Assembly (NCBI GenBank): GCA_026398615.1
Contig: JAPLSN010000031.1
Span: forward strand, 124,001 to 188,000
Reading direction: 5' to 3'
Source of the DNA: Spirochaetota bacterium
Lineage (GTDB): Bacteria > Spirochaetota > Spirochaetia > Treponematales > UBA12059
DNA length: 64,000 nt
Below the pieces are notes generated by a model that did no database searches, had not been told where the DNA came from, and saw nothing but the letters and a program-made list of their open reading frames with translations. Shown here in pieces: positions 33,537-57,602 of this stretch (position 1 is its first letter; every line of letters starts with the position of its first letter). A program made the translations under genes and the position numbers.

Positions 33537-33563
33537 CGCTTCATCACCTTTCGACGAGGACGA

Positions 33564-33592
33564 AGTATAAGGGAGGAATTGCCGGTTGGCAA
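33564..33592 (-). promoter_or_regulatory. Promoter of the CHASE2 operon
   Basis: Minus-strand TTGCCA (33587-33592), a 17-nt spacer and TATACT (33564-33569), giving a leader of about 21 nt. Confidence 0.7.
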
Positions 33593-33628
33593 CATCGGGG
33601 ATGTCGGACCGGGTTTCCCCGAGGCAAC

Positions 33629-33664
33629 TTGCGTTTTGACCGGAAAAGGCTATGCTGGTAGAGT
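33629..33664 (+). promoter_or_regulatory. Candidate promoters of the 14-gene operon
   Basis: Two overlapping options: TTGACC (33636-33641) with TAGAGT (33659-33664) at 17 nt, or TTGCGT (33629-33634) with TATGCT (33651-33656) at 16 nt. Both would start near 33663-33671, about 85 nt before the first gene. No other clear promoter is seen within the operon. Confidence 0.55.
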
Positions 33665-33751
33665 CCGGCATGGGAACCGGGTTCCGGACTCCCGCCGAGC
33701 CCCTGGGGGTTTGCCTCAAGTCCGTTCCTTGTGTTATGGAAGGATCCTGAC

Positions 33752-35254
33752 ATGAAGCTGTTCGCGAACGATACCTTCATAGTGCCCGACGACCCGGGGA
33801 TTTCCGGCATACCCCCGGGATTCGAACCGGAGTCTTTCGGGCTCCAGTTCATCCCGCTCCTCGTCGTGAGGATCAATCGCACCGACACCCTCCTCATGAA
33901 GCCGGGCGAATCCGGGTGGTCCGGCTGCAACGTCGAGAACGTCCGCGTGACCTCCCCGCCCTCCATGGGCTTGTCGGCCTTCCTAGCCGCCCGGGACGCC
34001 GCGCTCGGGGTCCTGCGCGGTGCCCGGGACGAGGCGTTCGCGGCCTGGGCGCCCCGCCTCGACGCGGCGGTCGCGGGAGCCTTCCCCGGTTCGGGTTTCT
34101 CCATCGGGAAGCTCGTGGGCGACGTCTTGCGCAATTTCGGGATGGAAGCCTCCCGCGCGGACGGCGCGGTCACCCTGGCGCCCTTCGCGGAGCCGCCGCA
34201 CGCGCTCTATGTCGCGCCGGACGATGCGACCGGCCTCAGGGTGCTCTACGCGGCGATCTTCCTCAGGCTGGTCGTCGATGCGGATGATCACGATTTCCTC
34301 GAATACCGGAACCTCGAATACGTCCCGCTCCGCTTCTTCGTGCCGGGACTGCGGCTCCACCCGCGCTACGCCCTCCACACCGCGACCCTCGCCTTCTTCG
34401 GCAGGTACGGGTTCCCGACGGGTTCGCCGCCGGGTTCCCCCTCGGTGACGCCTGCGGACGAGATCCCCGTGCTCGAATGGAAGATGCGCCGCAGGGTCGC
34501 CGACTCGATCACCTTTGCCTGCGATCTCTCGTTTTATTACGACAACGTCGGCGATCCCGATATCTTCGAGCGGGGCTTCTTCCCGCCGAACCCGGAGAGC
34601 CGCGAGGAGCGCTTTCTCGCGGACATGAAGGCGCTCGGGAGCGAGGGATTGCGGCCCGAAATCCACCGCTTGCGCGCCCTGGCCCTTCTCGACGAGTACG
34701 CCATCGAGGCCATTGTCCGGAGCGGGATGTTCATCCGTTCCTATTCACCGGGGCGCTTCGCGGGCTTCGCCGAAACCGCCGATTTCGACGACGGGGAGGG
34801 CAGGGTCTCGGCCGCTCCGCTCCACGCGTTTTCCGACCTGGCGCGCTTCCTGAAGCGGGTCCGCATCGTGCTGGACCGCAAGCGCATCGAGACCGTGGGC
34901 CCGCTCTACGACGATCCCGAGCGCTGGTTCAACCTGCGCAGGGACGTGGTGCCCTTCGACGCGGAGCTGGAATTCGCGCGCGCGGCTTCGCTGCTGGACC
35001 GGGCGCCCGTGCCTTCGGCCGCGGGCGCCGTGGAGACCGGGTACCGCAAGCACGGCCTCGTCGTCACCGGGGAAGCCTGCCGCTTCTTTCCCCTCGAACT
35101 TTTCCTGTCCCTTCCGGACGGCCGCGATGCCGACCGGATCGAGCCCGGCACCCTCTACTTCGCGAGCCGCGACGACGCCCTGGGCGGATTCCGGGCCCGC
35201 GACGCCGACAGGGACGGGCAGGACGACAACTTCTACATCTGGAGGATGACATGA
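33752..35254 (+). CDS. Unknown 500-residue protein, first gene of operon
   Basis: No known family recognised. There is no signal peptide or TM helix, so it is cytosolic. The first 70 residues are strand-rich (FANDTFIVPDDPGISGIPPG), the middle is helical and Arg-rich (PVLEWKMRRRVADSITFAC; RFLKRVRIVLDRKRIE), and the C-terminal part has a DADRDGQDDNFY segment reminiscent of a Ca-binding or EF-like Asp loop, though it may be chance. ATG 33752 is preferred over ATG 33731 because GGAAGGATC is well spaced. Its stop overlaps the next gene (ATGA), tying it to the peptidase. Confidence 0.75.
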   Translation: MKLFANDTFIVPDDPGISGIPPGFEPESFGLQFIPLLVVRINRTDTLLMKPGESGWSGCNVENVRVTSPPSMGLSAFLAARDAALGVLRGARDEAFAAWAPRLDAAVAGAFPGSGFSIGKLVGDVLRNFGMEASRADGAVTLAPFAEPPHALYVAPDDATGLRVLYAAIFLRLVVDADDHDFLEYRNLEYVPLRFFVPGLRLHPRYALHTATLAFFGRYGFPTGSPPGSPSVTPADEIPVLEWKMRRRVADSITFACDLSFYYDNVGDPDIFERGFFPPNPESREERFLADMKALGSEGLRPEIHRLRALALLDEYAIEAIVRSGMFIRSYSPGRFAGFAETADFDDGEGRVSAAPLHAFSDLARFLKRVRIVLDRKRIETVGPLYDDPERWFNLRRDVVPFDAELEFARAASLLDRAPVPSAAGAVETGYRKHGLVVTGEACRFFPLELFLSLPDGRDADRIEPGTLYFASRDDALGGFRARDADRDGQDDNFYIWRMT

Positions 35255-37101
35255 CGAAAAACCCGTTGATCGCCTTCGTGCTCGCGTTCGCGTGCGCGGC
35301 GGCCGCCATGGCCCAGGCGGCGAAGGTTCCCAAGCCTGTCGAGCTCGGTCAGGAGGCCTTCGCGAAGATGGATGCCGGGGATCCGGCCGGCATCCTCAAG
35401 CGGATCAGGCGGCCGTCGGGTTCCTACGAGATCGTCGGCAGCCGGGAATTCTACGACCTGCCGAACAACGTCATCCTGCGCGAGGACTGCATCCAGCTCA
35501 CCGAGGATCAGAAGCCCTTCCTCGAGCAGTACAGGCAGCACCTGGGCAAGGCCATGGGCACGGTCTGCGAGTTCCTGTTCGACAAGCGCGTGACCGACCG
35601 CTTCGACGACTCCTTCTTTTACGCATACACCTTCCAGGAACCCTGGAAGGGCGAGATGCGGCTCAACGCCGATTACGCCGCCCTCGTCATGGCGCAGCGC
35701 CACTTTCCCCGCGCCATCGAGTTCACCTTCTGGCCCTGGACCGATGCGGGCAAGGTCAACGGCCTCTACATGGATACCGGTTCGACGAGCTCCGGAGGCG
35801 TCATCCAGCTTTCGCTCTACGACACCTTCGAGCAGGACGCCATCCTCAAGGCCGTGAAGAAGCAGGATCCGGGCTGGAAGTACGGGGATTCCTACGGGAG
35901 CGTCATCAAGTCCATGCAGGATGCGGGGATCGCCGAGCGGATGCCGATCGTGCAGGTCTTCCTCCACGAGGGCACGCATGCCGTGCTCCAGTTCGCCCGG
36001 GGCGGCGGTTTCGCCGAAGACGACCGTCGGCTCTACGAGGGCGTCACCGAGCTGCTGGCCTTGCGCGCGGCGCACTGGTTCTCCGCGGGCTACGAGGACT
36101 TCATCGACGTGTTCGCCTACCCGGGCGGCGTCTTCATGGCGGGGCTCCTCTTCTCCATCGATCCGCAGGGCCTCCTGGACTGGTACACCCGCGCCCGGTC
36201 GGACCCAGACGCGGCCTTCGCCGACAGCATCGCCGCGAAACTGTCCGCCATCCGGGATGTCCGCGGGAACACGCCGGCGCTCGACCCCACGCGGACCGCC
36301 GCGTTCAAGGACGCTTTCAGGAAGGTATACACGGACGGGGGCGCGACGAAGCGCGAACAGCTCTGCGCGGTCTTCGCCGACTACTGCGACCTCAAGATCC
36401 TCTGGGAATGGGTCAGGGAGAACGGGACGTACTTCAACCAGCTGCCGCTCAAGCTGCGGCTTTTCGTGGTCACGAACTTCTTCGGGCTCGACGCTTTCCG
36501 GGTCGGACCCGACCCGAAGCAGTACGAACTGCAGGTCCGGGACATGCTCTCCAAAGCCGAGCGGAAGAACTGGAACAACAAGATCGAGAAGGAGATCGAA
36601 GGCTTTCTCAAGGACCCGTCGGGCGAGGAACAGGACGCCAGCCCCATCGGCATCCAGGTGTCCCAGCCGAAGAAGGACGCGGACGAACCCGATGATATGA
36701 TGAAGAACAAGAAGCCACAGGTCCTCGACGCGAACACGGGCGTCATGGAAGGCCCCGACAAGTCGAAGTGGAAAAAAGACAGGATCAAGGCCTTCGTGCC
36801 CGACAAGGCCGAACAGCCGCGATCCTCGCTGCCATCGGTGAAGGCGTGGTTCGACGAGTACTGGAAGAAGAACGGAAAGCCCTCCGACGCCGAGTACGTC
36901 AAACGCAGGGACGGGCTCATCGTCACCTTCGACCTCACGCGGGTGGACGCGATCACCGACTTCGTCATAGCGACAACCCTTTCGAAGAAGGCCGCCCAGG
37001 AATGGCTGGACTTTCTCAACGGTTACATCGCCCCGAACCTCAGCATGGGCAAGGATTCCCTCAGGATCCCCCAGGTGAGGATGAAGACGCTCTACAACTG
37101 A
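35251..37101 (+). CDS. Predicted secreted HEXXH zinc metallopeptidase
   Basis: A 616-residue exported protein. The signal peptide MTKNPLIAFVLAFACAAAAMA is followed by a mixed domain with VFLHEGTHAVLQFARGGG (HEGTH at 239-243) and, 20 residues on, LYEGVTELLALRA. This is the arrangement of a gluzincin-type zinc peptidase with a Glu third ligand. The downstream ~350 residues are helical with a basic, Lys-rich region (about 480-530) and no TM helix. I infer a periplasmic protease; the family is not named by any motif I can match, and it could be an inactive or non-peptidase relative. It is second in the operon. Confidence 0.75.
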   Translation: MTKNPLIAFVLAFACAAAAMAQAAKVPKPVELGQEAFAKMDAGDPAGILKRIRRPSGSYEIVGSREFYDLPNNVILREDCIQLTEDQKPFLEQYRQHLGKAMGTVCEFLFDKRVTDRFDDSFFYAYTFQEPWKGEMRLNADYAALVMAQRHFPRAIEFTFWPWTDAGKVNGLYMDTGSTSSGGVIQLSLYDTFEQDAILKAVKKQDPGWKYGDSYGSVIKSMQDAGIAERMPIVQVFLHEGTHAVLQFARGGGFAEDDRRLYEGVTELLALRAAHWFSAGYEDFIDVFAYPGGVFMAGLLFSIDPQGLLDWYTRARSDPDAAFADSIAAKLSAIRDVRGNTPALDPTRTAAFKDAFRKVYTDGGATKREQLCAVFADYCDLKILWEWVRENGTYFNQLPLKLRLFVVTNFFGLDAFRVGPDPKQYELQVRDMLSKAERKNWNNKIEKEIEGFLKDPSGEEQDASPIGIQVSQPKKDADEPDDMMKNKKPQVLDANTGVMEGPDKSKWKKDRIKAFVPDKAEQPRSSLPSVKAWFDEYWKKNGKPSDAEYVKRRDGLIVTFDLTRVDAITDFVIATTLSKKAAQEWLDFLNGYIAPNLSMGKDSLRIPQVRMKTLYN

Positions 37102-37115
37102 AGGGGAGCGCCGAC

Positions 37116-39422
37116 ATGAGACTGATCGCATCACGATTCGCGTCCGTCACCGCATTCTTCCTGTGCGCTGCCCTGGCCGCGGGGCAGCAGGGGGCGCGTC
37201 CGGCGGACGCCTTTTCGCGCCTGAGTGAAAAGCTGGCAAAGGAGCTTGGCAACCCGGAGGCATGCAGGAAATACGGACTCCTGGCGGCCCCGGATCCCAA
37301 CGGCCTCACGATGGACGAGCTCCTGCTCCATTTCTCCCCGAAAGTGTCGGATCTCGACGCCTTGGGGGAGCAATACTCGGGCATCCTCGCCCGCATCTCA
37401 GGCGGCGCCACGGAACGGGACGCGAAGGCTTCGTGTGGCTTCGCCGCGCTCTCGCTGGCGATGGTCTTCGAGGAATTCGCCGCCACCCCCGACCTGGTCA
37501 CGGGCATCCTGCCGGCGGGTTCGCTGCCCGGCATCGCGCTTTTCGCCGAGCGCCCGGTCCTCGACCGGCTCGCGTCCGCGATCGCGGCGATGGGCAAGGG
37601 CAGGCCGACAGCCAAGTTCTTCATCGGGAAACAGGAGAGCGCCCTGGCCTTCGTCCGCGACTGGTGCGCGGCGGAAAAGCCTTCGTACCCGGAACGCAGG
37701 GACCTCGTCGAGGTGATGAGCTTCAGCCGGGAATCGGTGAAGCGCTACTTCGACCGGGCGCTCGATTCGGTGAACGCAGTCGCCAAGGTGAAAGCCTTCA
37801 TGAAGCTCTACGGGGACTACCTCGCCGGCTCCGGCCAGCTCGCCGAAGAGGAGTTCGCCGGGCTGCTTTCGGCCCTCTTCGACAAGAAGCTCGCCGGGAA
37901 GCTCAGGCTCACGTCCGACGAGGTCAAGGCCGCGCTGTCCGCGGTCGCCCAGTCCCTTTCGCCGGAGAACAAGTACCGCGCGTGGCTCCTTTCCGAAAAG
38001 GAACCGTTCGCGATGGTGGAAGCCGCCGCGGCGCGGCAAGCCCTCGCCGCCCCGCTCAGGGCCTTCTACGGGAAACTGGATGCAGGATCGCTCAACGCGC
38101 TCCTCGCCGCGGACTTCGAGGGGCAGGCGCGCTTCGCCGCCGATTCCATAAGCTTCCTCAAGGGCAGGTCGTCGCCGAAGGGAGACGAACTCCTGGCCGG
38201 ACTGCGCGCGGAAAAGGCATGGGCCCTCGCGGCCATCGACGGCAGGCTGTCATCGCCGCCGCTGAAATCCCTGGCCGCCCTCCTGGAAAAATGGTCGCCG
38301 CCCGCAGGCTCGCCCGCGGCGGGTGCGCCGCTGAATCCCTACCCGCTCATCCGGCGCTTCTACGAAAAGCTCGACGACGCGGCCCTCGCAGGGGCGGCGC
38401 GCTGGGGCTTGGCCGGGCAGGAAGGTTACTTCTCGTTCGCTTTCCTGCGGGATCCCGCGGCAACCCTCACCGAATCCCCCGTTCCGGCGGACAGGGCGGC
38501 GCTGGTCCCGGCGTTGGCGACCCTCGCTTCGAAGCTGTCGGCCTTCCTCGCCGCCGATCCGGCCGGCGGAAGGGCGTGGCGGCTCGCGGGCGAACCGGGC
38601 TTCCTGTTCGCCAACGCTTTCGAGTACGGCACGGCCGCCCCCGAATTCGCGAGGGCCTGCGACGCGCTGTTCAACCTCAAGAAGGCGCGGGGCATCGAGC
38701 GATCCGACTGGCTCCTCAAGTTCGCGCCTTTCGTGGCGTCCGACCCGAAGCGGAAGTCGCTCGGCTTCATGCGCGGAGGCGGGCTCCCGGCCCAGGCGCT
38801 CGACAGACTCTTCCGGGAGACTGACAGGTTCGACGAGCTCGTCGCCATCCTCGCGCAGGACGACAGGGGCGTCCTCGTCTCGGGCGATCTGGCGCTCCAG
38901 GTCCTGCAGTTCCGCATGGCCGAAGCCGGGCGCGACACGGCCGCGCTCGTGAAACTCGGCTCCGCGAACGAGGCGCTGCGTTCCCGCATGGCCTCCGTCG
39001 GGAAATACATCGCCCGCAGGGTCGGCGCCGACCGCGGTTTCGCCCCGCCTGCGGATGCGCTCGTCGCCTACGTCGCGGCGATGCGCGGCGCTGAGGATAC
39101 CCTCGCCGTCCCGAAAATCGACGCAAGGAACGTCGAGCGGACCCTGGACCTGGCGGCCGCCGTCCTGCTCCTGTGGGACCCTTCGGTCGCGAGATCGAAG
39201 GATGCTGCCGTGGCCGTGACCTATGCGTTCAGGCTCGTCGAGGCGATCGCCGCGTTCGTCGAGGACGGAGCCCCCGACGCCGGGACGTCCGCCAAAGCCG
39301 CGTTGGCTGATTTCGCCGCGTGGGACTACAAGGGCGTGCTCGACGCGGCCGCCAGGAACGACACCAAGAAGAACGCCGTCGAGATCAAGCAGATCTTCGA
39401 CGCGATCGGGTACGGGCTTTGA
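37116..39422 (+). CDS. Exported helical protein of 768 residues
   Basis: The signal peptide MRLIASRFASVTAFFLCAALA is followed by an almost wholly helical chain rich in Ala, Leu, Lys and Glu (for example EELLSGLLSALFDKK-like segments and LAALLEKWSPP), with no TM helix, Cys pairs or catalytic motifs. Regular helical hairpins suggest an alpha-solenoid scaffold, but I cannot define a repeat. AAGGGGAG lies upstream of ATG 37116. It is next to the peptidase and ahead of the giant exported protein and may be their periplasmic partner. Confidence 0.72.
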   Translation: MRLIASRFASVTAFFLCAALAAGQQGARPADAFSRLSEKLAKELGNPEACRKYGLLAAPDPNGLTMDELLLHFSPKVSDLDALGEQYSGILARISGGATERDAKASCGFAALSLAMVFEEFAATPDLVTGILPAGSLPGIALFAERPVLDRLASAIAAMGKGRPTAKFFIGKQESALAFVRDWCAAEKPSYPERRDLVEVMSFSRESVKRYFDRALDSVNAVAKVKAFMKLYGDYLAGSGQLAEEEFAGLLSALFDKKLAGKLRLTSDEVKAALSAVAQSLSPENKYRAWLLSEKEPFAMVEAAAARQALAAPLRAFYGKLDAGSLNALLAADFEGQARFAADSISFLKGRSSPKGDELLAGLRAEKAWALAAIDGRLSSPPLKSLAALLEKWSPPAGSPAAGAPLNPYPLIRRFYEKLDDAALAGAARWGLAGQEGYFSFAFLRDPAATLTESPVPADRAALVPALATLASKLSAFLAADPAGGRAWRLAGEPGFLFANAFEYGTAAPEFARACDALFNLKKARGIERSDWLLKFAPFVASDPKRKSLGFMRGGGLPAQALDRLFRETDRFDELVAILAQDDRGVLVSGDLALQVLQFRMAEAGRDTAALVKLGSANEALRSRMASVGKYIARRVGADRGFAPPADALVAYVAAMRGAEDTLAVPKIDARNVERTLDLAAAVLLLWDPSVARSKDAAVAVTYAFRLVEAIAAFVEDGAPDAGTSAKAALADFAAWDYKGVLDAAARNDTKKNAVEIKQIFDAIGYGL

Positions 39423-39466
39423 GCGGATCGTCAGGCACGCGCGGGACGGGGCCGGAGGGGCGCATC

Positions 39467-42400
39467 GTGCTCGCCGCGGCGTTCGCCGCCGTCATGGCCC
39501 TCGCGGCGGCGCCCGGGGACGATTCGGTGAGCCTCGAGCGCTTCGCCGGCGCGGTTGCCAACATCGTCGACTACATCAAGGGCGGCGACGAAGTCGGGGA
39601 GGCCTACTTCGGCAGGATCGTCCGGCACCTGCCGGAAACGGAGTCCGGGGCGGAGCTGGAAGCGGTCGAGGGCTACGGGGAATTGCGCGGCTATCTGTCC
39701 CGCGGAAATACGCTCTTCGGGCTGGACAGGAACCTGCGGCTCGCCGTGCTCCTCAAGCTGGGCGACGGGAAGGGCGCGACCGCCCTGCTCGATGGCGGCG
39801 AGTTCGCCTCGTTCGGCGATGTGGCGGCCATCGCGTCCAGGGTGGACGGGACGGGGGGAGGGGCCGGGGTCGCGATCGGGAGCGCGATGCTCGTCGTCGG
39901 CCGCGACCGCAGGAACATGATCGCCGACGCGTTGCGCGCCTCCGCAAAGTTCGCCGGCACCCTCGGGTTCGCGGGCGGGAAGAAGTCGGAAGCCGCGGAG
40001 AACTACGCCGTCCTCGAGGAATACTTCGCGAAATGGTTCGGATGGGAGGAGCTCAGGGATTTCCTCGTACGCGGCAAGGACATCGGCATCGCCATAGAAA
40101 ACCCGATCTCGGAGGAGACGCTCCGCGCCTACCTGGCCAAGCTGCCGCTCGATCCGGAAAGCCTCGCCGAGCTCGCGTCGGTCGCGCCCAAGTTCGAATC
40201 CCCGGCGCCCGTGTACGAGTGGATGTCCGCCTTCGGGACGACGGTCTACGGGGCGGGCGGGACGCTCTTCTCGCCTGACGCCTTCACCCGCGGGGCACAC
40301 CTGGAAACGATCGACGCATACGCCCGCTCGCTTTCGTCACTCCTCGAATCGTCCGGTTCCGGCCGCGGGGGCGGCCGGCCGAAGCGCCGGCACGACGGGG
40401 CTGCGCTCTCCGCGAAGATGGCGGAGGGGCTGTCGGCGCACCTCGATTCCGGGAAAGCGGACCTGTCCGTAGGAGCGATCCTGGACTTCTTCCGGGCGCT
40501 CGACGGCGGGCGCGGCGGGGCGGCTGCCTTCGTATCGCGCAACGCGCGCAGGCTCGTGGCCGTGAAATTGTTCCCCGACTCCGGCTCGGGGGGCCTCCAG
40601 GAGGATTTCCCCCGCATGCTTGCCGACCCGCAGTCGGTCAAGCTCTTCCTGTCGCAGCTTTCGCGTGGCATGTACCCGGCGGGCCAGCGTTCCGCGTACC
40701 TGCGGTTCTACGACGCCGTGGCCGGTTCATGGAACGGGCAGAGCCCTTCGCGCTCGGAACCGGGGTTCATCGTTCCCGGGGAACCCGAATACACGGTAGG
40801 CGAGCAGTTCCTGCGCTTCTACCTCAGGTACTACCGGGAGATCGACCCCGGGCGCTTCGTGCAGTACGACGACGCGCTCTGGCGGGCTTTCGACTTCGGC
40901 CCCGGCGGACGCGGCAAGCCGGACTTCGTCGCCTTCCTCGCGGAGGGAAGGAAGAGGCTGGAACGTCCATCCTTCACGACGGAAAAGTCGCTCTCCTTCC
41001 TTGCCGAGCAGGTCCTCGTCGGGCCGTGGAAGGCAGGCGACGCCGCGGCCCTGGTCTTCTCAGTCCTCGTTCCCGACGCATACGTGGATCCGGCCGTGCC
41101 GGCTTCGGAAAAAAACAGGCTTCTGACGCAGACGCTGCCGATCCTCGAGGGGTTTCATTTCGGCAGGAAGGCGGCTCCCGACGGCAGCGACGCGTGGGCG
41201 GGGTTCAAGGAATTCTACCCGGGCTTCGTCGGTTCGCTTTCGGGGCTCATCGCGTCGCCGGGTTTCGGCGAGGGGCGCGACTTCCGTTCCTGCGTGGCGT
41301 ACGGCGAGCTCGCCGCGGCCTGCGCCAACGTGGATCCGACCGCCATCCCGTCCGTCGCCGGCTGGGCGCTCGGGCGCTACCGGCTCTTCGACCCGTTCGT
41401 GGCCGAGAGCAGGGTGGAGGAAGAGACCGTCGAAAAGGAATTCTTCGGCGAGCGCCGCCATGCCCCGCCCGCGAGCCTCAACTACAGGCTGCTCTCCGAC
41501 GGGAAGACGGAAGCCCCCACGGACCGCAACGACAAGGCGGAGGAATCCCTCGCCGTCCTCGTGAAGGGCGCGCTCAGGCGCATCCCGAAACTCCGCAGCG
41601 TCCAGGACGCCGACCGCTGCATGGACGGCACCCTGGCGGTCATGCGCAGCGTACCCGGAGGGACGGGAGGAATCGACTATCTCGTGGGCGGGGAGAAGCC
41701 CAAGATGCTCGCCCGGAGGGCTTTCGAGTTCGCGGTCATCCTGATCGACGGGGAGAGGGATTACGATCCGGACGAGCTGGCGAACGCCAACGGGGAGGAC
41801 GCGCTCGCCAAGATAGCCCGGATCCTGGGCATCGCCGAATCGATCGACGGCAAGCCGCTGGCGCTCCGCCTCTCCGAAATCAGGGACGAGGTGAGGAAGC
41901 TGGCGCCTGCCGACGCGGAGGCACGGGCGGCGAGGAAGGCGGATTTCGTCGGCCTCGTCGAAGGCCTGCAGGATTTCATGTATCGCAAGGCCACCGAGGC
42001 GCTGGCCGCCGACATACGCGAGACGGCGCTCCTCCTGGATGACGCCCAAGCCTACGAAGCCGTGGTCAAGGCCTTCGTCAAGATCGTCTACTACCATCCG
42101 GACCAGAAGGTGTCCGCGGCCGTGGCCAGGGAGTTCGTGAAGCTTTTCGGCGGCGCGGGGAACCTGCCGGGGAGCCTCTACGGCGACTACGCGCGGATCT
42201 GCTTCTTCTCGTTCCGGAACGACGCCGCGCTGCTCGGGGCGGCCTTCGGGAACCTCTACCGGCGCTACCGCGATTCGCCCGAGCGCGGCGGGCAGTACGT
42301 CTCCGCCATGCTCGTGTTCGCGGACGACGAGAAGATGCGCGCCGTCATGCGGCAGGCCCTCGACGGCGATCCCGAGTTCAAGGAGGCGATCGGGCTGAGC

Positions 42401-45139
42401 CCCGAGGAATCGCTTTTCGTCTACCGCGTGTTCGGGACCGCCGACTACGCGAAACTGGTCGCGAAGCCGGAATTCCGCGACGCCTTCGCGCGGGATTTCA
42501 CCGCCTTCGCGCCGGCAGTCAAGAAGGTTTTCGAAGCTTGCCAGGCGCGTCTTACGAAGGAGCCGGGCGACGCGGTCGTCCGCGCCATCGACGAACGCCT
42601 GCGCGTCCTGGTGGCCGAACGCTGGGACGAGTACGCCGGGAGCATGAAAGGCCTGGTGCATTTCTCGCGGATCGGCGAGGCCGACCCGAAGGAGGCCGCG
42701 CGCGCCAGGGAGACGGGGGCCGCCATCTTCGGCTTTTTCGTCAACGAGGCCCGCGTGCTCTCGGGCGAATTCCTCGACTCGAACATCTTCTACTTCCCGC
42801 GGCCGATGAGGAAGTTCATCGACGCGCCGTCGGCGTGGGAGAAGGGCGTCGCCTCGATCAGGCCCGTCTCCGGCGAGCGCTCGTGGTTCGACTTCTTCGC
42901 CGACGGCGCCGAGTTCTATTTCGGCCTGGAGCGGCGCTTCGGCGTGAAGGATTTCGCGTCCGGGCTCGTATACGTCAACGCGGCCATCTACGACGCGACG
43001 CGCGCCATCCTGCAGGCGGAAAAGGAAGGCCGGAAGGCCGACGCCGACCGCTTGTGGGAAGAGAAGGTGGTCTCGCGGGTCTTCGACCCGATCCTGCGGG
43101 GGCGGATCTTCGACGGCCGCGACTATTCCTATGAAAAGTACGAAGACCTGCGGAACATACGCTTCGCGACGGGATCGAAGTACGACGGCACGCACTTCCT
43201 GCTCGAGTCGCTCTATGTGAGCTGGATCAGGGAGGAACTCGGCGCGCTCCAGCCGTCCATCGAGCGCCGCTTCACGGCCATGATGGCCACCTTCTTCGTC
43301 TCGGCGACGCTGGGGATCAGCGTCGACAACAGCCAGGAGTTCCTTGACCATACCCTGCTGCCGCTCTTCAGGCGCACCGTCGAGAACAACAAGTTCGACT
43401 ACGGTCCCGTGGCGGACGGGATCTACCCCAAGCAGGGGGATTTCTTCGCCGATCCCTGCAGGCCGCTCTACGTCGATCCGCGCTTCAACTACGGGAAGTA
43501 CAATTACCTCTGGAACCTCCGCGCCGGGCAGGATCTCAAGGACGGTCTTTCCGCGTGGTATCGCTTCGCGCCCGACAACGCCCGCTTCTTCGAGTTGATG
43601 CCCGCGTTCCTCCTGCGCGACGAGCAGCTCACGGCGGGATCCCGCCCGAACGGAAACCCCGACCCGGTGCGGGCGTCGTGGGGTTTCTACCTCCACCGGC
43701 TCGACGTCGCGATTTCCGAAGAAGGGAAACGTTCCGTCCGGGTGGCGGGCTTCCTCCGCTTCCCGGGAAACGTCAACGATGTCCTCATGCTATCGGACCC
43801 GCCTGCGGCCGTCCCGCCCGAACCTCGGCCCTCGGGCGGGGAAGGCGCCCCGGCCGCGGCCGGGCCTGCAGGTGCGGAAACCCGGGAACCGGAACCGTCC
43901 GACAGCCCGCGCTGGGCGGTCGCGCGGACGAACGCCACCTCGTCCATCCGCTACGAATTCACCTACCTCACGAACGACCGGGCCGGGACCACCGTCAACG
44001 CCGCCGGGCTGGGCCCCTCGGCGGACCCGAAGGAAAAGGACGTCGGGATCGGCGCCTACCTGGGCGGCGTCGTCTTCATCCCGCAGGACATGGTGTTCAG
44101 GAACCTGAAGCGGAACGCGGACCTCATCGTGGCCGCCCGGGGCGCCGGGGTCGATCCTGCGACGCTCACGATCTTCTCAGACGGCCGCTGGCTCCGCGTC
44201 GACGCGGACCGGTTCAGGATGGACGGCTTCAATACCATGGACGACGTGTACAGCCTGAACGGGACGGTGGGGAACACGGACGCCATCTCCGCGTTTTCGG
44301 GGGCGAAACGGGCGCCGCTGGCCAGAAACCCGATCGTCCCGCTCGACCGGAAGCGGAGCTTCGACACGGTGTGGTTCGCCGCGATCGAAAAGCAGGGCCA
44401 GCTCGGCCTGGTGGAGAAGGCGGCCGCGGGGTCGAAATTCCATTTCGTGTTCCGCTCCCTCGACGGTTCGGGCGACGCCGAGATCTGGCCCATCGAGGTC
44501 GTGGCCGAAGGCTACAATTCGCTCAAGTTCAAGTTCGTCCGCTTTGGCTCGAAGAAGGCGCCGCCGCCTGTCGAGGACGCCGCCCTGTCCTTCGCCGTCA
44601 CCTGCTCGAGCCCGGATTCCGCGGAGTCCGGCGCGTTCTGCATCGGGGTGGACGCCGCGGCCGGCAAGGTGAGGACCTGGGAAAAGCTCCTGGGCGTGAG
44701 CACCGAACTCTCGTTCGACGCCCCGCTCCCCGTCGGGACGAGATCGGTCATCGTCAGGGACAAGGCGTTCGCGAGGGCGGAGTACGACGGGTGGCTCATG
44801 CCCGGTTCGGTGGACGCGGATTCCGGGCGCATCGTGGGCGGCGCCGTAGCCGTCCAGCCCGCGCTGTTCGCGGAACTGGACAAGGCGGGCGTGCGCGGCC
44901 GGCCGGAGTCGCGCAACGTCTACGTCAGGTTCCAGGTGCAGGGGCCCGGCGGCCCGAGATCCGCGTTCGTGACGGCGGCCGCGGGGCGGTTTTCGATCAC
45001 GCCGAACTACGGCGACGCCTATTTCCTGGGCATATTCAACCGCTTCATCATGAACGAGTCGGCGGAAAGGTACCGCAAGGAAATAGGCGACGCGGCTTCG
45101 AGATGGTTCAGGTTCGACGGCTTCGGGGCGCCCCGGTGA
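39467..45139 (+). CDS. Giant exported protein of about 1,890 residues
   Basis: The largest gene in the window. About the first 1,440 residues are helical, in 30-50-residue hairpin-like units. A Pro/Ala/Glu-rich linker (about 1445-1485, near 43800-43920) leads to a strand-rich C-terminal part of about 400 residues. GTG 39467 has a strong site GGAGGGG (39454-39460) and would give a short signal-like start (MLAAAFAAVMALAAA) with no positive charge. A TTG at 39419 overlapping the previous stop would add RGTGPEGR and a better signal peptide. No known domain is recognised. It has no C-terminal TM or sorting motif, so a periplasmic or surface location is inferred. Confidence 0.7.
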   Translation: MLAAAFAAVMALAAAPGDDSVSLERFAGAVANIVDYIKGGDEVGEAYFGRIVRHLPETESGAELEAVEGYGELRGYLSRGNTLFGLDRNLRLAVLLKLGDGKGATALLDGGEFASFGDVAAIASRVDGTGGGAGVAIGSAMLVVGRDRRNMIADALRASAKFAGTLGFAGGKKSEAAENYAVLEEYFAKWFGWEELRDFLVRGKDIGIAIENPISEETLRAYLAKLPLDPESLAELASVAPKFESPAPVYEWMSAFGTTVYGAGGTLFSPDAFTRGAHLETIDAYARSLSSLLESSGSGRGGGRPKRRHDGAALSAKMAEGLSAHLDSGKADLSVGAILDFFRALDGGRGGAAAFVSRNARRLVAVKLFPDSGSGGLQEDFPRMLADPQSVKLFLSQLSRGMYPAGQRSAYLRFYDAVAGSWNGQSPSRSEPGFIVPGEPEYTVGEQFLRFYLRYYREIDPGRFVQYDDALWRAFDFGPGGRGKPDFVAFLAEGRKRLERPSFTTEKSLSFLAEQVLVGPWKAGDAAALVFSVLVPDAYVDPAVPASEKNRLLTQTLPILEGFHFGRKAAPDGSDAWAGFKEFYPGFVGSLSGLIASPGFGEGRDFRSCVAYGELAAACANVDPTAIPSVAGWALGRYRLFDPFVAESRVEEETVEKEFFGERRHAPPASLNYRLLSDGKTEAPTDRNDKAEESLAVLVKGALRRIPKLRSVQDADRCMDGTLAVMRSVPGGTGGIDYLVGGEKPKMLARRAFEFAVILIDGERDYDPDELANANGEDALAKIARILGIAESIDGKPLALRLSEIRDEVRKLAPADAEARAARKADFVGLVEGLQDFMYRKATEALAADIRETALLLDDAQAYEAVVKAFVKIVYYHPDQKVSAAVAREFVKLFGGAGNLPGSLYGDYARICFFSFRNDAALLGAAFGNLYRRYRDSPERGGQYVSAMLVFADDEKMRAVMRQALDGDPEFKEAIGLSPEESLFVYRVFGTADYAKLVAKPEFRDAFARDFTAFAPAVKKVFEACQARLTKEPGDAVVRAIDERLRVLVAERWDEYAGSMKGLVHFSRIGEADPKEAARARETGAAIFGFFVNEARVLSGEFLDSNIFYFPRPMRKFIDAPSAWEKGVASIRPVSGERSWFDFFADGAEFYFGLERRFGVKDFASGLVYVNAAIYDATRAILQAEKEGRKADADRLWEEKVVSRVFDPILRGRIFDGRDYSYEKYEDLRNIRFATGSKYDGTHFLLESLYVSWIREELGALQPSIERRFTAMMATFFVSATLGISVDNSQEFLDHTLLPLFRRTVENNKFDYGPVADGIYPKQGDFFADPCRPLYVDPRFNYGKYNYLWNLRAGQDLKDGLSAWYRFAPDNARFFELMPAFLLRDEQLTAGSRPNGNPDPVRASWGFYLHRLDVAISEEGKRSVRVAGFLRFPGNVNDVLMLSDPPAAVPPEPRPSGGEGAPAAAGPAGAETREPEPSDSPRWAVARTNATSSIRYEFTYLTNDRAGTTVNAAGLGPSADPKEKDVGIGAYLGGVVFIPQDMVFRNLKRNADLIVAARGAGVDPATLTIFSDGRWLRVDADRFRMDGFNTMDDVYSLNGTVGNTDAISAFSGAKRAPLARNPIVPLDRKRSFDTVWFAAIEKQGQLGLVEKAAAGSKFHFVFRSLDGSGDAEIWPIEVVAEGYNSLKFKFVRFGSKKAPPPVEDAALSFAVTCSSPDSAESGAFCIGVDAAAGKVRTWEKLLGVSTELSFDAPLPVGTRSVIVRDKAFARAEYDGWLMPGSVDADSGRIVGGAVAVQPALFAELDKAGVRGRPESRNVYVRFQVQGPGGPRSAFVTAAAGRFSITPNYGDAYFLGIFNRFIMNESAERYRKEIGDAASRWFRFDGFGAPR

Positions 45140-46617
45140 AAACGGCGCCGGTATACTTCGCGGTCAACGTCCTCCTCGCATCGATCGCCTGCGTCGCGCT
45201 CTCGCTCGCGTATCCGGAAAGCGGCATCGGCGAACCGGAGACGATCGGCGCGGCCGTCGCCGTCTACGCGGCGGCGGCATTCGTCACGGCGCGCCTGGGA
45301 CGTTCGCTCCACGGCTACCTGCCGCCCCGCTTCGAATCGGAGGGCGCCGCGGCCCGCCGCGCCTTCGACCCGAGGCACCTGGCGTGCAACTTCCACGCGC
45401 CGCTCGTCGTGACGATCGCGGGCCTGTTCGCATTCATGAACTTCATGGTCAGCCCGACGATGGAAACCTATCCCATCGTGCGGGGCAACATCCTCATCGT
45501 GGCCAAGACCAACCACAAGATGGCCGACGGACGCAGCTACTGGTTCGCCGATCAGGCCGCGTCGGACCTCCTCCTGCACGCCGTGATCGGGATGAAGGAA
45601 TCCGTCACGGACATCGCCTCGAAGACCGCCGGGAAGTTCATCAAGGAGAAGAAGGCATCCGAGCTTAAGGACGTGTTCGCGTCGCTGGGAAGGCTGTCGC
45701 TGCGGGACGCGTTCTCGAAGCTCGTCTCGCGCGTGCGCTTCAGCGGGAAACCGCCGATCCTGCTCTACGGCATACGCTTCGTGAACTACACGGGCTTTCC
45801 GCTGTCGGCGTCCCAGGTGCGCTCTGGCGTGTCGTTCGATGAATACCGCCTTCCCCCGTACATCGGAAGGACCGTCACCCTGCGCGAAGGACTCGAGGAG
45901 GACGACACGAAGCTGCTCGAGCTGCCGCGCGACTGGTCGCGCTTCGGCTCCAAGCCGGACAGCTTCAATTTCGTGCGGAGCTTCTACGCGCTCGGTGGAT
46001 ACCGGGAGGTTTTCTCGAAGGATTCCCAGGACTGGGAGCGCCTCCAGGCGGGCTTCGCCGAACCCGCGACCAGGCCCGTGCTCATCTGGTTTTCCGACGA
46101 CTGCTACGAGCCTGACCGGCTGGACGGCTATCCGTTCTACCCGTCGTTCACGAACCCCGGCGACCCGATCCTCTCGAACCAGGCCGCGCTCGAGTACACG
46201 ATCTTCCGCCGCTTCTTCGGCCAGCGGCTCTTCATCGGCATGAACGGCCTCCAGCAGTACGAGAACGCGGAAGTGCGCGGGAAGACCATCAAGTCGAATC
46301 TCGGCATCGAACGCTTTTTCGATTCCTCGCAGCGGCTCGAACTGCCGCCGATACGCTTCGCCGATCCCGTCGCCGGGCGCAAGGACCTCCAGAAGGCCAT
46401 CGACGAACTCCACCGGGGGCTGGAACCCTTCATAGAGTCGCTGCTCGCGGAAGGCCTGCAGATCGACATCGCGACGCTGACCCCCGATCGGGACAAGGAG
46501 CGCGAGGGGCTCATCTTCCGCTACGACGAGATCGCGGCCCTGATCATGGCGCCGTTCGCGATCTGGACGGTCGGCATAGCCTTGCGGACGCTCGCGTACC
46601 GCAAGGTGGAGGGCTAG
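45136..46617 (+). CDS. Membrane protein with degenerate vWA-like domain
   Basis: A 493-residue protein starting at GTG 45136 (GTGA overlap with the giant gene). It has TM helices at about 5-24, 34-52 and 86-104, a soluble domain, and a final TM at about 463-482. The start of the soluble domain, ILIVAKTNHKM (about 119-129), aligns with the vWA metal-site strand (hydrophobic-DxSxSM), with D, S and S replaced by K, N and K. The topology (N-terminal TMs, vWA-like domain, C-terminal TM) is that of BatA/BatB. The homology is suggested, not proven. Confidence 0.65.
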   Translation: MKTAPVYFAVNVLLASIACVALSLAYPESGIGEPETIGAAVAVYAAAAFVTARLGRSLHGYLPPRFESEGAAARRAFDPRHLACNFHAPLVVTIAGLFAFMNFMVSPTMETYPIVRGNILIVAKTNHKMADGRSYWFADQAASDLLLHAVIGMKESVTDIASKTAGKFIKEKKASELKDVFASLGRLSLRDAFSKLVSRVRFSGKPPILLYGIRFVNYTGFPLSASQVRSGVSFDEYRLPPYIGRTVTLREGLEEDDTKLLELPRDWSRFGSKPDSFNFVRSFYALGGYREVFSKDSQDWERLQAGFAEPATRPVLIWFSDDCYEPDRLDGYPFYPSFTNPGDPILSNQAALEYTIFRRFFGQRLFIGMNGLQQYENAEVRGKTIKSNLGIERFFDSSQRLELPPIRFADPVAGRKDLQKAIDELHRGLEPFIESLLAEGLQIDIATLTPDRDKEREGLIFRYDEIAALIMAPFAIWTVGIALRTLAYRKVEG

Positions 46618-46620
46618 GCG

Positions 46621-47643
46621 ATGACCGACCAGCTCAGGACGGCGGTCATCGCCTACGCCGCGTCTGCGGTCGCCATCGCGGGGTCGACGGCGGTCGCGTG
46701 GCTGGCGGGCAGGTCCCGCGCGCGCGTCCTTTCGCTTTCAGGCGGCACGTCGATGAGGATCGAAGCCCGCCAGCGTTGGCTCGCGGCCGTGCTCGTCGCG
46801 CTCGTCCCGCTCGCGGGATTCTCCTATTTCTTCTTCCCCACGAGGACGCTCTCCAAGAAAAACCCGGAGCTGGACGACAGGCGGCCGCTCCTCGTGGTCA
46901 ACCTGGACGCCAACTGGTACATGGGGCTCGCGCTTTCGCAGAACCAGGCGATGGCGGCCAATGTCCGCAGGATCGTCGCGCGCCTTGCCGGGACGGGGGC
47001 CGACCTGAAGCTCACGGCCTTCGCCATGGACGAAATCCGCTACGCGAGCCCGTTCTACTACAGGACGGGAAAGCGGGAGGGCGCGGACGCGCTGGCGTCG
47101 AGGTACTTTTCCGCCGCCGCGGCGAGCCAGGCCCAGAAGAACGTCCGGGACAGCCTCTTCACGAACGGCTTCTACTGGAGGCTGGTCGGTTCCGCGTACG
47201 GCGAGGTCGACGGCCTCATCTCCATCCTCAACAAGATCGAGGAAGTGCGGTCTTACAGGACCGGGGAACGGAAGGTGATCAAGGCGGACGTCTTCGTCGT
47301 GACGGTCTCGAAGCGGAACGTGAACGTGCGCACCTGCCTGGACGGGGCGGAGAACGTCCCCAGGCCGGAACATCCGCGCCGGACGGGGACGGGGAACCGC
47401 TACGGGACGTACATCCTCTTCGACGACAACGGCTCGCTGCCGGCCCAGGAAGCGGCGCGCCTGGAGCGTTTCGTCGAGGGCGTGGTGAACGCCGAGAACA
47501 AGCCCGACCTGTCGAAACTCGAGATCAACTTCGGGCTCGACCGCCGGGAGACGGCGGCCGCGGGATGGTTCCTGGTGGCCGCCTGCGTCGCGGCACTCGT
47601 GTGCCAGGCTTTTTTCGATTCGATCAGGATACGGCTGCGATAG
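46621..47643 (+). CDS. BatA/BatB-like membrane protein, altered MIDAS
   Basis: A 340-residue protein with TM helices at about 8-28 and 53-73 and a C-terminal TM at about 313-333. Between them is a vWA-like domain beginning LLVVNLDANWYMG: the site reads D-x-N-x-Y where DxSxS is usual (Asp96). The next helix (ANVRRIVARL) and strand (KLTAFAMDEI) fit the vWA order. This is the BatA/BatB topology. With only Asp kept, metal-dependent partner binding would be changed or lost. It begins 3 nt after the previous stop. Confidence 0.68.
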   Translation: MTDQLRTAVIAYAASAVAIAGSTAVAWLAGRSRARVLSLSGGTSMRIEARQRWLAAVLVALVPLAGFSYFFFPTRTLSKKNPELDDRRPLLVVNLDANWYMGLALSQNQAMAANVRRIVARLAGTGADLKLTAFAMDEIRYASPFYYRTGKREGADALASRYFSAAAASQAQKNVRDSLFTNGFYWRLVGSAYGEVDGLISILNKIEEVRSYRTGERKVIKADVFVVTVSKRNVNVRTCLDGAENVPRPEHPRRTGTGNRYGTYILFDDNGSLPAQEAARLERFVEGVVNAENKPDLSKLEINFGLDRRETAAAGWFLVAACVAALVCQAFFDSIRIRLR

Positions 47644-47668
47644 GATCGCAGGGGAAGGAGACGACAGG

Positions 47669-50737: not shown

Positions 50738-50747
50738 GGGGGCAGCC

Positions 50748-52127: not shown

Positions 52128-52134
52128 GGCCCGG

Positions 52135-53106
52135 ATGCCGCATTCGTCCGTGCGCGACGCCTACCGCGAGTACCTCTCCCGCCGCCGCGACGAGCTCGAA
52201 GACCGCTCCGTGGAGGCGGAGCTGGCCTTCTTCAAGGTGATGCGGAACCTCGTGTTCGGGACCAACCGGTCGATCTTCCTCACGACGACGGGCAAGGACC
52301 GTGAGGGCGTGGAGAAGTGGGCGCCGGGCAAGCCGATCAACCGCGTGAACGTCAGGGCGACCATCTCCGGCTTCCGTCCCGAAAACCCGGCGGAATCCAT
52401 CGTCATCGACACCTTCCGGGACGATCGGCGGCTCTCGATGGAACTCGTGATCGACCGCTCCGACGCGTTGTACCCGCGGGAACTCCTCGCCGGCGTCGAA
52501 GACCCGCTCGATTCGAAGGCGGCCACGAGCGTCATCGTGCAGGCGCTGCTGCGCTCGCTGGCCAGGGACTACGACGCGTCGCTCTCGCTGTCGTATTTCC
52601 CCGGGGACGCCGACGACGCCGTCCGGGTGGACGTGAAGCGCCGGGGCTGCGGCGACCTGGCCGCGTTGTTCGACCTTGTTCCCGTACCCCCGGGGCCGCC
52701 TCTCGGGGCATTCGCCCGGATGGAGCGGCGCAGCGTGCGTCATGCGGTGGTCGTCGTGGTCGCGGACGAAAGGGCATTCGAATTCCCCGGGCGCGGACCG
52801 TTCCTCGAACGGATGCGGACCTTTACGCTGACGAACGATGTGATATACTTCGCGCTCGCCACCGATTACGAAAGGCTCTTCGCGGCTTCGGCCGGGCCCG
52901 TCGAGGTGGCGACGCCCGCGGGGACGATCTCCGCAGATTCCGCGGAACGGCGGGCGGAAGCCGGGAGGGCGCTCCGCGACCTGGCTCTCGAATCCTTCGT
53001 CCCGCTCGCGGCCGCGGGCATCCACGTGTGCCCGGTCGTCGCGGGCAGTCCCGGCTGGGCGGATTCCATCGTGGGCTTTTTCAGGAACAGGCTCGTATTG
53101 AAATAA
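52135..53106 (+). CDS. Degenerate DUF58-like protein
   Basis: A 323-residue cytosolic protein. WAPGKPINRVNVRAT (62-76) resembles the DUF58 signature Y-x-x-G-D-x-x-R-x-I-x-W-x-x-x-A-R. It is followed by SMELVIDRSDAL (101-112), in the place of the DUF58 vWA strand, with DRSDA instead of DxSxS: the Asp and first Ser remain. No TM helix, so the usual membrane anchor is absent. It is immediately behind the first MoxR gene and so is its likely partner. I rate the family call as moderate. Confidence 0.62.
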   Translation: MPHSSVRDAYREYLSRRRDELEDRSVEAELAFFKVMRNLVFGTNRSIFLTTTGKDREGVEKWAPGKPINRVNVRATISGFRPENPAESIVIDTFRDDRRLSMELVIDRSDALYPRELLAGVEDPLDSKAATSVIVQALLRSLARDYDASLSLSYFPGDADDAVRVDVKRRGCGDLAALFDLVPVPPGPPLGAFARMERRSVRHAVVVVVADERAFEFPGRGPFLERMRTFTLTNDVIYFALATDYERLFAASAGPVEVATPAGTISADSAERRAEAGRALRDLALESFVPLAAAGIHVCPVVAGSPGWADSIVGFFRNRLVLK

Positions 53107-53132: not shown

Positions 53133-54113
53133 ATGAACGAGGAACGGCTTTCCCAGGCGGAACTAGCGGAATTCGTGGAAGCGAAGCGCGGGCTCATGGC
53201 GAACATCGAGGCGGTCATCAGGGGGCAGGCGGAGACGGTCAAGACGGTTATCGCGACCCTCCTCGCGGGAGGCCACGCCCTCATCGAGGACATGCCGGGG
53301 ACCGGGAAGACCACCCTTGCCCTCCTCATTTCCCGCTCGATCCAGCCGAGGAAGAACTCGGTGATGTTCAAGCGCGTCCAGTTCACGCCGGACCTGCTGC
53401 CGCTCGACATCACGGGCTCCAGCATCTTCCACCAGCAGAAAAACGAGTTCATCTTCCACCCTGGGCCGGTATTCGCGCACATCGTGCTCGCCGACGAGCT
53501 CAATCGCGCGTCCCCCAAGGTCCAGTCGGCGCTGCTCCAGTGCATGGCCGAAGGCGACGTGACGGTGGAGAACGTCACCTACGAGCTCGAGGAGCCGTTC
53601 TTCGTCATCGCCACCCAGAATCCCCTCGAGACCGAAGGAACCTACCCGCTCCCGATCGCCCAGCTCGACCGCTTCTACGCCAAGGTGTCCATGCTCCGGC
53701 TGGACAAGGAGCTGAGCGTCCAGATCCTCAAGGATTACCGGCGGATCGTGAGCTTCGAGGGCGTCAGGCCCGTGATGACGATCGAGGACGTGCTGAAATT
53801 CCGCGAGTACGCCTCCCGCGTATGGGCGGACGAATCCCTCCTCGGCCTCATCGCGGACATCATCATCGAAACCCACGGCTCCAGCGAGCGCATCGCCGTC
53901 GGCGCCTCCCCCCGCTCCAGCATCATCCTCCTCAAGATGGCCAAGGCCTGGGCCCTGCTCAACGAGAGGACCTACGTCACCGAGCAGGACATCAAGGACC
54001 TCGTGCAGCCCTGCCTCCGGCACCGGCTCAAGTTCAACTACGCCGAATCGGAGGAAGCGGAACTCCGCAAGGTGGCCGACCGCTGCTTCGAGCGCTTCGT
54101 GAGGAAGGCGTAG
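53133..54113 (+). CDS. MoxR-family AAA+ ATPase, canonical (second)
   Basis: A 326-residue MoxR of standard length. Motifs: Walker A MPGTGKTT (53-60), FKRVQFTPDLLPLDITGSSIF, Walker B IVLADELNRA, sensor 1 ATQNPLETEGTYPLPIAQLDR and the sensor-2 region GASPRSSI. It is an ATP-driven remodeller, most likely acting with the DUF58 protein two genes on. AGGA upstream sets the start at 53133. The first and second MoxR are clearly different subtypes rather than a recent duplication. Confidence 0.95.
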   Translation: MNEERLSQAELAEFVEAKRGLMANIEAVIRGQAETVKTVIATLLAGGHALIEDMPGTGKTTLALLISRSIQPRKNSVMFKRVQFTPDLLPLDITGSSIFHQQKNEFIFHPGPVFAHIVLADELNRASPKVQSALLQCMAEGDVTVENVTYELEEPFFVIATQNPLETEGTYPLPIAQLDRFYAKVSMLRLDKELSVQILKDYRRIVSFEGVRPVMTIEDVLKFREYASRVWADESLLGLIADIIIETHGSSERIAVGASPRSSIILLKMAKAWALLNERTYVTEQDIKDLVQPCLRHRLKFNYAESEEAELRKVADRCFERFVRKA

Positions 54114-54170
54114 GCCCATGAGCGCGAACGCCGCCCGTCAATCCGCGTGCGCGCGGGAAAGGGTCCCGCG

Positions 54171-56138
54171 GTGATCTCGAACCGTGCGCCCGTCGCGCGC
54201 CGGCCTTCCCAGGCGCGGCGCCAGACCGTTTCCGGACGCCCGGGCGCGCGCCCGGGGGACGCGGCGGACGGCAACCGGCCGGGAGGGCGGGGGGAAGGAA
54301 CCGGGAAAGCCGGGCACCTGCGCGTCTATCTGACGGCCTACCTTCTGTGGTTCTTTTTCGGCGTGTTCGGGGCGCACCGCTTCTACCTGAAACGCACGAT
54401 TACCGCCAACCTCTACCTGGCCACCTTCGGTGTATTCGGCCTCGGGTGGTTCGTCGACTCCTTCCGTACCTTCTTCCTCGCCAGGGCGCGCGTCCGCGAG
54501 ACGGAGCTCGGCGAGTCGTCCTTCGAACGCGTCGTCGCGTCGGAGTTCGAGGACATGGAAACGCGGGACGAGGGCGCGCTCCTGCGCTCCGGGCGCGACG
54601 CGGCGATGCGTCCGGGCACCGCCCAGTTCGTCATCGGTTCCGTCATCGACGCCATCCTCTTCGTCACCGCCGCGGCCGCCATACTCTTCGCGCTGATCTA
54701 CTTCGACCTCGTGCTTCTGGCCTTCCCGCTGGTATTCATCTGGATCGTGCTCCTCCTCAACACGGGGCTCATCAACTCGATCAAGGACAACGTCTTCATC
54801 CTGAACGATCTTCCCGTCAACGTGGAGAACTCCCTCTCCGCGACGACCTACAAGGTTTTCCAGTTCGGCAAGGGATTCAAGCCCAGCCTGTTCAAGTACT
54901 TCTTCCTCCCCGTGTACCTACCGTTCTACTACCTGTTCGCCGCCCGGCGCGACGGGCGCAGGCTGGAGACGCGTGAACTCTTCGTCTTCTTCAAGCTGTA
55001 CACGGGACTCTTCCTCTTCTGGATCACCATCGAGGTCACGCGCATCCTCAACGCGTCGCCGGCCTTCCGCATCGGGTTCTGGGACTTCCTGCCGCTCGTG
55101 CACCCGCTCGTCCTCCTGTCGAAGCTCGCCACCGTCCGCGGCTACGCGCCGATCCACCTCCTCACGGCGTACGTCGTGTCAGCCTTCCTCTTCCTCTGCC
55201 TCACCTGGCTCATCAACATCTCGAACGCGCTCATCCTCCGGAACACCTACGAACTGGCCGAGGAGCGCGCCGACCGCGGGATCCCGCTCGCGGTACGCGC
55301 GGTGATCGTGTCGGTGATCGCCGTGGTGTTCGCCTTCGCGGTCGGGGCGGCCTTCGATTCCGGTACCCAGTACGAACTCGAAAACGGATCCGTGCGCAAG
55401 TTCTACTCCGCGCTGGAGATCGCCCACCAGAGCGAAGTCCTGGATTCCGCGGTCGTCCGCATGCTCGAGGGGCTCGACAATCCGAACGGTTTCCCGAGGA
55501 ACGCCTTCGCGTCGGCGACCGAGGTCCTCCTCGTCCGCGACGAGCAGGAGAGCAAGCTGCCCGCATCCATGAACCGTTCCCTGCGCTTCCAGATGGAGCC
55601 ATTCTCGTCCCGGCTCAAGGGCTACCTCTCGGGCGGCGCGATCGACGGCCGCTACGACAGCTTCATCAACGTCCATACCGTCACCGTCGAGCTCGGGGGG
55701 CGGCGGACCAACCTGCTCATGTTCTCCGTCGACAACCTCTCGGCCGGGGGATACTTCTACTTCTTCCGTATCCCGCTCAACATCGAGCGCAGGGCCTACC
55801 CGCTCCTGTTCCTCCGTTTCGTCGATTCCAGGCAGGGCTCGGGCTCGAGGCCGATCGTCGTGGCGGAGGAACCGGTGTGGCGGCGGAGCGCGTTCAAGGA
55901 CCCCAGGCTTGGCGAACGACCCGGCCCCGTGACCCTGCCGCCGGGGGACGCGGCCATCCTCAGGGCCGAATCCGCGCGATTGCGCGCGGATATGGAAAAT
56001 CCCGCGTTCTGGCGGCAGGTCAAGGAAAACCTGGCTACCGAATTCGGCGTCGCCGACCTCGGCGGGATCACCCTCGAAACCCGCTATTTCCTCTCCCCGC
56101 AGCGGCCCGAACTCTTCCTCGGGGAGGTCCTGCGATGA
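54171..56138 (+). CDS. TM2-domain polytopic membrane protein
   Basis: A 655-residue membrane protein. A short basic, Pro/Arg/Gly-rich N-terminus (about 1-48) precedes a TM2 domain (YLLWFFFGVFGAHRFYL, LYLATFGVFGLGWFVD), then about six to eight further TM helices and a soluble C-terminal domain of roughly 250 residues. The start is GTG 54171, with AAAGGG seven nt upstream; GTG 54147 is less likely. An 18-codon ORF (54118-54174) ends at this start (GTGA). The stop overlaps the DUF58 gene. It sits between the second MoxR and its DUF58 partner. Confidence 0.83.
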   Translation: MISNRAPVARRPSQARRQTVSGRPGARPGDAADGNRPGGRGEGTGKAGHLRVYLTAYLLWFFFGVFGAHRFYLKRTITANLYLATFGVFGLGWFVDSFRTFFLARARVRETELGESSFERVVASEFEDMETRDEGALLRSGRDAAMRPGTAQFVIGSVIDAILFVTAAAAILFALIYFDLVLLAFPLVFIWIVLLLNTGLINSIKDNVFILNDLPVNVENSLSATTYKVFQFGKGFKPSLFKYFFLPVYLPFYYLFAARRDGRRLETRELFVFFKLYTGLFLFWITIEVTRILNASPAFRIGFWDFLPLVHPLVLLSKLATVRGYAPIHLLTAYVVSAFLFLCLTWLINISNALILRNTYELAEERADRGIPLAVRAVIVSVIAVVFAFAVGAAFDSGTQYELENGSVRKFYSALEIAHQSEVLDSAVVRMLEGLDNPNGFPRNAFASATEVLLVRDEQESKLPASMNRSLRFQMEPFSSRLKGYLSGGAIDGRYDSFINVHTVTVELGGRRTNLLMFSVDNLSAGGYFYFFRIPLNIERRAYPLLFLRFVDSRQGSGSRPIVVAEEPVWRRSAFKDPRLGERPGPVTLPPGDAAILRAESARLRADMENPAFWRQVKENLATEFGVADLGGITLETRYFLSPQRPELFLGEVLR

Positions 56139-57601: not shown

Positions 57602-57602
57602 C

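Follow-up and report, generated by a model that had tools for sequence, protein, structure and literature searches.

A predicted exported zinc-hydrolase-like protein of an orphan family in a rare nine-gene MoxR cassette

Introduction

MoxR ATPases have been characterized as chaperone-like factors that help dedicated complexes to mature (PMC3893208). The exported substrates of MoxR/DUF58-type systems are poorly known. In vitro, the TgpA protein of Pseudomonas aeruginosa acts as a transglutaminase, and its gene belongs to a predicted four-gene operon (PMC3507681). In VMAP/FtsH ternary systems, peptide-processing modules encode a zincin-like metallopeptidase near MoxR-vWA genes (PMC7159879). Among zinc peptidases, thermolysin has the arrangement H142ExxH-aa19-E166, with D170 hydrogen-bonded to H142 (PMC3268031).

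Here we describe a zinc-hydrolase-like protein, P0001, encoded in a 64,000-nucleotide stretch of DNA (the window). Its gene lies in a nine-gene cassette (cassette A, 33752-53106) that is followed by a second set of genes (module B, 53133-62635; Table 1). Module B is like the described MoxR-DUF58-TgpA loci (PMC3507681) in encoding a MoxR, a DUF58-like protein, and a membrane protein with a transglutaminase core, whereas the zinc protein of the window belongs to the separate cassette, which encodes a MoxR1 and a DUF58-like protein of its own. Bat operons, known from spirochaetes and others (PMC3557215, PMC5700661), share with cassette A the clustering of MoxR, DUF58, and membrane proteins. They differ in that cassette genes 1-7 gave no vWA or BatD Pfam match and in that a zinc protein is present here. 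The sole vWA match in the region came from a convergent gene (62645-63919).

The ternary MoxR-vWA systems (PMC7159879) resemble our locus in having a zincin-like metallopeptidase near a MoxR and a vWA-type partner. They work with small FxSxx-type precursors, radical-SAM enzymes, and AP-ATPase effectors; no such component was recognised in our locus, and P0001 looks exported. No radical-SAM family was found in any cassette protein, and both MoxR1 and MoxR2 scored below threshold with the bpMoxR model. A first-pass annotation of this DNA had considered a zinc peptidase non-standard in MoxR-DUF58-TgpA sets; the ternary systems offer a precedent beside MoxR-vWA genes, in a different kind of locus.

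Table 1. Coordinates of the genes of cassette A and module B and of the motif codons of P0001.
Feature	Position	Strand	Remarks
Gene 1, about 500 aa, no signal peptide or TM, no family	33752..35254	+	34% identity to G788
P0001, zinc-hydrolase-like, predicted exported, 616 aa	35251..37101	+	ORF, motif, orthologue
HEGTH codons (residues 239-243 of P0001)	35965..35979	+	HENTH in orthologue
EGVTE codons (residues 263-267 of P0001)	36037..36051	+	Identical in orthologue
Gene 3, exported, 768 aa, no family	37116..39422	+	Orthologue aligned in part, 21% identity
Gene 4, about 1900 aa, N-terminal hydrophobic segment, no recognised domain, start uncertain	39434..45139	+	
Gene 5, membrane protein, N-terminal TMs and one C-terminal TM	45136..46617	+	29% identity to orthologue
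Gene 6, membrane protein, TMs at both ends	46621..47643	+	23% identity to orthologue
Gene 7, polytopic membrane protein, 1022 aa	47669..50737	+	26% identity to orthologue
Gene 8 (MoxR1), divergent MoxR AAA+ ATPase, 459 aa	50748..52127	+	57% identity, most conserved member
Gene 9, DUF58-like (weak)	52135..53106	+	34% identity; orthologue vs DUF58 E=0.029
MoxR2, canonical MoxR	53133..54113	+	Not adjoining the cassette in G788
TM2-domain membrane protein, start uncertain	54147..56138	+	Module B
DUF58-like protein	56135..57601	+	Module B; sub-threshold Pfam match
TgpA-type protein, Transglut_core E=2.9e-18, Cys567/His612/Asp628 in right order	57603..60536	+	Module B
Exported protein, 700 aa, no family	60527..62635	+	Module B

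The P0001 gene and its motif

The P0001 frame is open, and its GC content by codon position (0.59/0.40/0.90) is coding-like. Its ATG overlaps the stop codon of gene 1 by 4 bp (ATGA), an overlap that recurs at the corresponding locus of G788, a genome from another family of the same class. The N-terminus (MTKNPLIAFVLAFACAAAAMAQA) resembles a signal peptide over about residues 1-22. The first-pass annotation had called this signal peptide clear; it does look signal-like, as judged by hydropathy and inspection only.

Translation of the ORF confirmed the HEGTH at residues 239-243 and the EGVTE downstream of it, both of which had been annotated previously. E263, the Glu of 'YEG', follows H243 after 19 residues, with E267 at +4, which gives the pattern HExxH-X19-E-X3-acidic. 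We presume that H239, H243, and E263 are zinc ligands, that E240 is the catalytic base, and that E267 is a second-shell residue. The spacing is identical to that of thermolysin (H142, H146, E166, D170; PMC3268031). The gluzincins of clan MA(E) have the same HExxH, third-ligand Glu, and +4 acidic residue, although elsewhere P0001 has no sequence likeness to them that is detectable with Pfam, NCBIfam, or the PDB.

We also evaluated how often such motifs arise by chance. HExxH alone was present in 0.17% of shuffled P0001 sequences, and the pattern HExxH-X17-27-E-X3-[DE] in 22 of 200,000 shuffles. Among 4,422 stop-to-stop ORFs taken from the surroundings of MoxR and TgpA genes in this genome and its relatives, no instance of the full HExxH..[YWF]EGxxE was found.

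Relatives of P0001

Searches for P0001 homologues in 59 relatives (E<=10) returned, apart from P0001, only a single match in its own genome, which we attribute to chance. At a threshold of 1e-3, 393 genomes of the phylum yielded no homologue. There was none that was convincing in 394 genomes of the order, where we disregarded weak matches at E 0.002-0.05 as too short or as interrupted. A tblastn search of plasmids and phages found none, and the MoxR and TgpA neighbourhoods of relatives had none. Pattern scans identified no relative in viral contigs, nor in GTDB contigs scanned with P0001 and with alignment A2, which was built to focus the scan patterns on the motif and includes two made-up fragments.

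G788 was found by using the C-terminal part of MoxR1 and cassette gene 4 as queries, and P0001 was then searched there. This genome encodes one orthologue, with 39% identity over residues 54-609 (about 555 aa, E=7.8e-115) and 37% identity over aligned columns. P0001 was absent from four other genomes searched in the family of G788, one of them from its genus, and the nine-gene cassette is thus sporadic.

Conservation of the motif

The motif blocks of P0001 and its orthologue are FLHEGTHAVLQF / FIHENTHAVFQF and LYEGVTELLALRA / LFEGVTEMCAHRA, respectively, with HExTHAVxQF and LxEGVTE common to both proteins. H239, E240, H243, E263, and E267 are all kept, as are four of the five His residues. The linker between HExxH and the downstream Glu is X19 in P0001 and X26 in the orthologue, where it is longer by seven residues and leads to E261. 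Because the motif blocks are kept at 37% identity despite this linker indel, they support a gluzincin-like reading. Since one orthologue is known, the motif conservation rests on a single comparison.

The gluzincin pattern proposed in the first-pass annotation is therefore kept in the single orthologue found. As for the conservation of HEGTH itself, the ligand and catalytic residues are retained in this one protein (n=1), while the third position changes from G to N and the exact string becomes HENTH. The PROSITE zinc-protease pattern disallows G or N at this position, which counts against a gluzincin-like hydrolase.

P0001 is the second most conserved protein of the cassette (37% identity, compared with 57% for MoxR1 and 21-34% for the others), and this ranking fits the expectation for an enzyme. 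Within P0001, the motif windows are above average, at about the 64th-73rd percentile of 20-residue windows, without being the most conserved part. A block at 289-314 (AYPG..SIDP..DWYTR) and the C-terminal WxDFLNGYxAP..GKDSLRI are more conserved than the motif. The conserved C-terminal domain spans about residues 526-606, and 17 of its 22 residues from 585 to 606 are identical.

The block at 289-314 and that at 585-606 point to strong selection beyond the putative zinc site. Together with the lack of similarity to any peptidase family, they are what would be expected if P0001 had a gluzincin-like zinc site and served a non-peptidase role in a MoxR-dependent envelope complex, be it as an inactive pseudo-enzyme, as a hydrolase of non-peptide substrates, or in a structural or sensing function. 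The general-base Glu240, however, is kept in both proteins and would be needless in a purely structural zinc site. We consider a non-peptidase role for P0001 unlikely.

Family searches and structure models

The comparison with peptidase families that the first-pass annotation had recommended gave no significant match. Neither the whole protein nor its fragments matched anything significantly in Pfam, NCBIfam, PHROGs, PADLOC, or, by sequence, the PDB, and the whole protein had zero Pfam matches at E<=10. The nearest family match of the fragments was a sub-threshold one to M50B (E 0.09), in the HExxH region only. The absence of a significant family match counts against the gluzincin-like hydrolase reading. 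Weak PDB matches of P0001 to carbonic anhydrase were dismissed, as their alignments fall outside HExxH.

Within the same phylum, Peptidase_MA_2 (PF13485) proteins have HExxHA(F/V)xQ and then E-G-x-x-E, as does P0001; unlike them, P0001 was matched neither by the PF13485 model nor by a local profile. This profile was made from about 30 domains collected from the same phylum and was compared with P0001 and with unrelated ORFs. No result with P0001 was significant (hmmsearch/hhalign), and for P0001 by itself the alignment covered only the HExxH segment. Because no profile score was significant, P0001 cannot be assigned to Peptidase_MA_2.

Two single-sequence AlphaFold2 models of P0001, made without homologues, had pLDDT values of 35.8 and 37.2, too low to support any fold. 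Such models, the negative profile test, and the ranking of the motif windows below other blocks would fit a P0001 in which HExxH and EGxxE are coincidental and which acts as an envelope scaffold without metal. The shuffling counts (22 of 200,000), the retention of the motif blocks across the linker indel, and the exact thermolysin spacing argue against coincidence, and we regard a metal-free scaffold as quite unlikely. P0001 is likely to be a gluzincin-type zinc hydrolase, for which peptidase activity is plausible.

The nine-gene cassette and a proposed function

In G788, each cassette gene has the neighbours and the orientation that it has in the window. The genes are distributed over three contigs, which we infer to be continuous: genes 1-3 lie on C319, gene 4 is split between C231 and C614, and genes 5-9 lie on C614. 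The orthologue of gene 4, divided between two of these contigs, is only 21% identical, and gene 4 is fast-evolving. Gene 9 is the final cassette gene in G788. The GC content of G788 is about 0.38, compared with 0.65 for the window genome; that gene order and the ATGA coupling are kept at such different base composition supports the explanation of a conserved cassette. P0001 is a member of a separable nine-gene cassette with a divergent MoxR and a DUF58-like protein of its own.

Several observations concern individual genes in or near the cassette. MoxR1 is unusually long, and its C-terminal part had one strong relative (48% identity) among the 213 genomes of the class that were sampled. Upstream of the G788 cassette (L178:1-7059) are genes for a TPR protein with a weak transglutaminase-core-like match (E=8e-4) and for a protein of 1112 aa that matches an OMP beta-barrel. 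In the window, an 829-aa membrane protein (31230-33719, minus strand) is encoded divergently from the cassette. By eye it looks like a CHASE2-type sensor with a cyclase-like C-terminus; it had no Pfam match at E<=0.5.

On balance, we think it fairly probable that P0001 is a gluzincin-like zinc hydrolase that is exported and most likely cleaves peptides, as part of a rare and conserved nine-gene envelope cassette. In such a protein, H239, H243, and E263 would coordinate Zn2+, E240 would activate water, and E267 would hold one of the ligand His residues, the role of D170 in thermolysin. P0001 would cleave an envelope partner, for which the large, fast-evolving exported products of cassette genes 3 and 4 are the first candidates. 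The cytosolic MoxR1/DUF58-like pair would use ATP to assemble or remodel the complex, and membrane proteins 5-7 would connect this pair to the P0001 side. We infer that P0001 would be exported, bind zinc, hydrolyse a substrate, and be linked to MoxR1; the substrate and the MoxR link are suggested by gene context. A bolder version, in which P0001 founds a new family of exported zinc peptidases gated by MoxR and the DUF58-like protein via proteins 5-7, with the large exported partners as substrates, in a rare nine-gene envelope machine, appears unlikely to us.

The retention of the putative metal-binding residues in the distant orthologue makes P0001 a probable new type of zinc hydrolase of the envelope, and we place it in a putative orphan zinc-hydrolase-like family within a rare MoxR cassette. 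It would add a zinc-hydrolase-like family that is unrecognised by the libraries used here. A cassette with a recognisable exported enzyme, second only to the ATPase in conservation, would give a MoxR/DUF58-type system a measurable output in the form of metal binding and proteolysis.

Module B and neighbouring genes

The 14 genes of cassette A and module B run in one direction with overlaps or with gaps of 26 bp or less. The exception is the TM2 gene, which has an uncertain start and is preceded by an apparent gap of 216 bp. The TgpA-type Cys enzyme noted in the first-pass annotation is indeed present, with its Cys, His, and Asp in the right order. The single direction and tight spacing of these genes, with one apparent gap, would favour a joint operon whose zinc peptidase and TgpA cooperate as a pair of processing enzymes in the periplasm, an arrangement compatible with P0001 being an exported zinc peptidase of the cassette.

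The G788 contigs argue against it. None of the module B proteins searched for (MoxR2, TM2, DUF58, TgpA) was detected on the three contigs. The cassette ends at the DUF58-like gene, and the sequence read after it is unrelated to module B up to the end of C614, about 2.4 kb beyond. Cassette A thus stands apart from module B in G788, and the window joins two modules, A and then B. The pairing of the zinc protein with TgpA is absent in the only other case known, and the annotated presence of two processing activities in one operon is accordingly true of the window only. The TgpA loci retrieved from relatives also lack a P0001 homologue, and joint action of the two enzymes seems quite unlikely.

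Elsewhere in the window genome, a second locus (L072, G000:C9:92000-111900) has a MoxR and a transglutaminase core and is without a P0001 homologue. Between module B and the gene for the convergent vWA-domain protein (minus strand) lie 9 bp; the protein has an intact-looking DxSxS (DVSYS). A DUF5312 protein (E=1.2e-9), which hints at a spirochaete lineage in that its family is known from treponemes, is encoded at 20683-22269.
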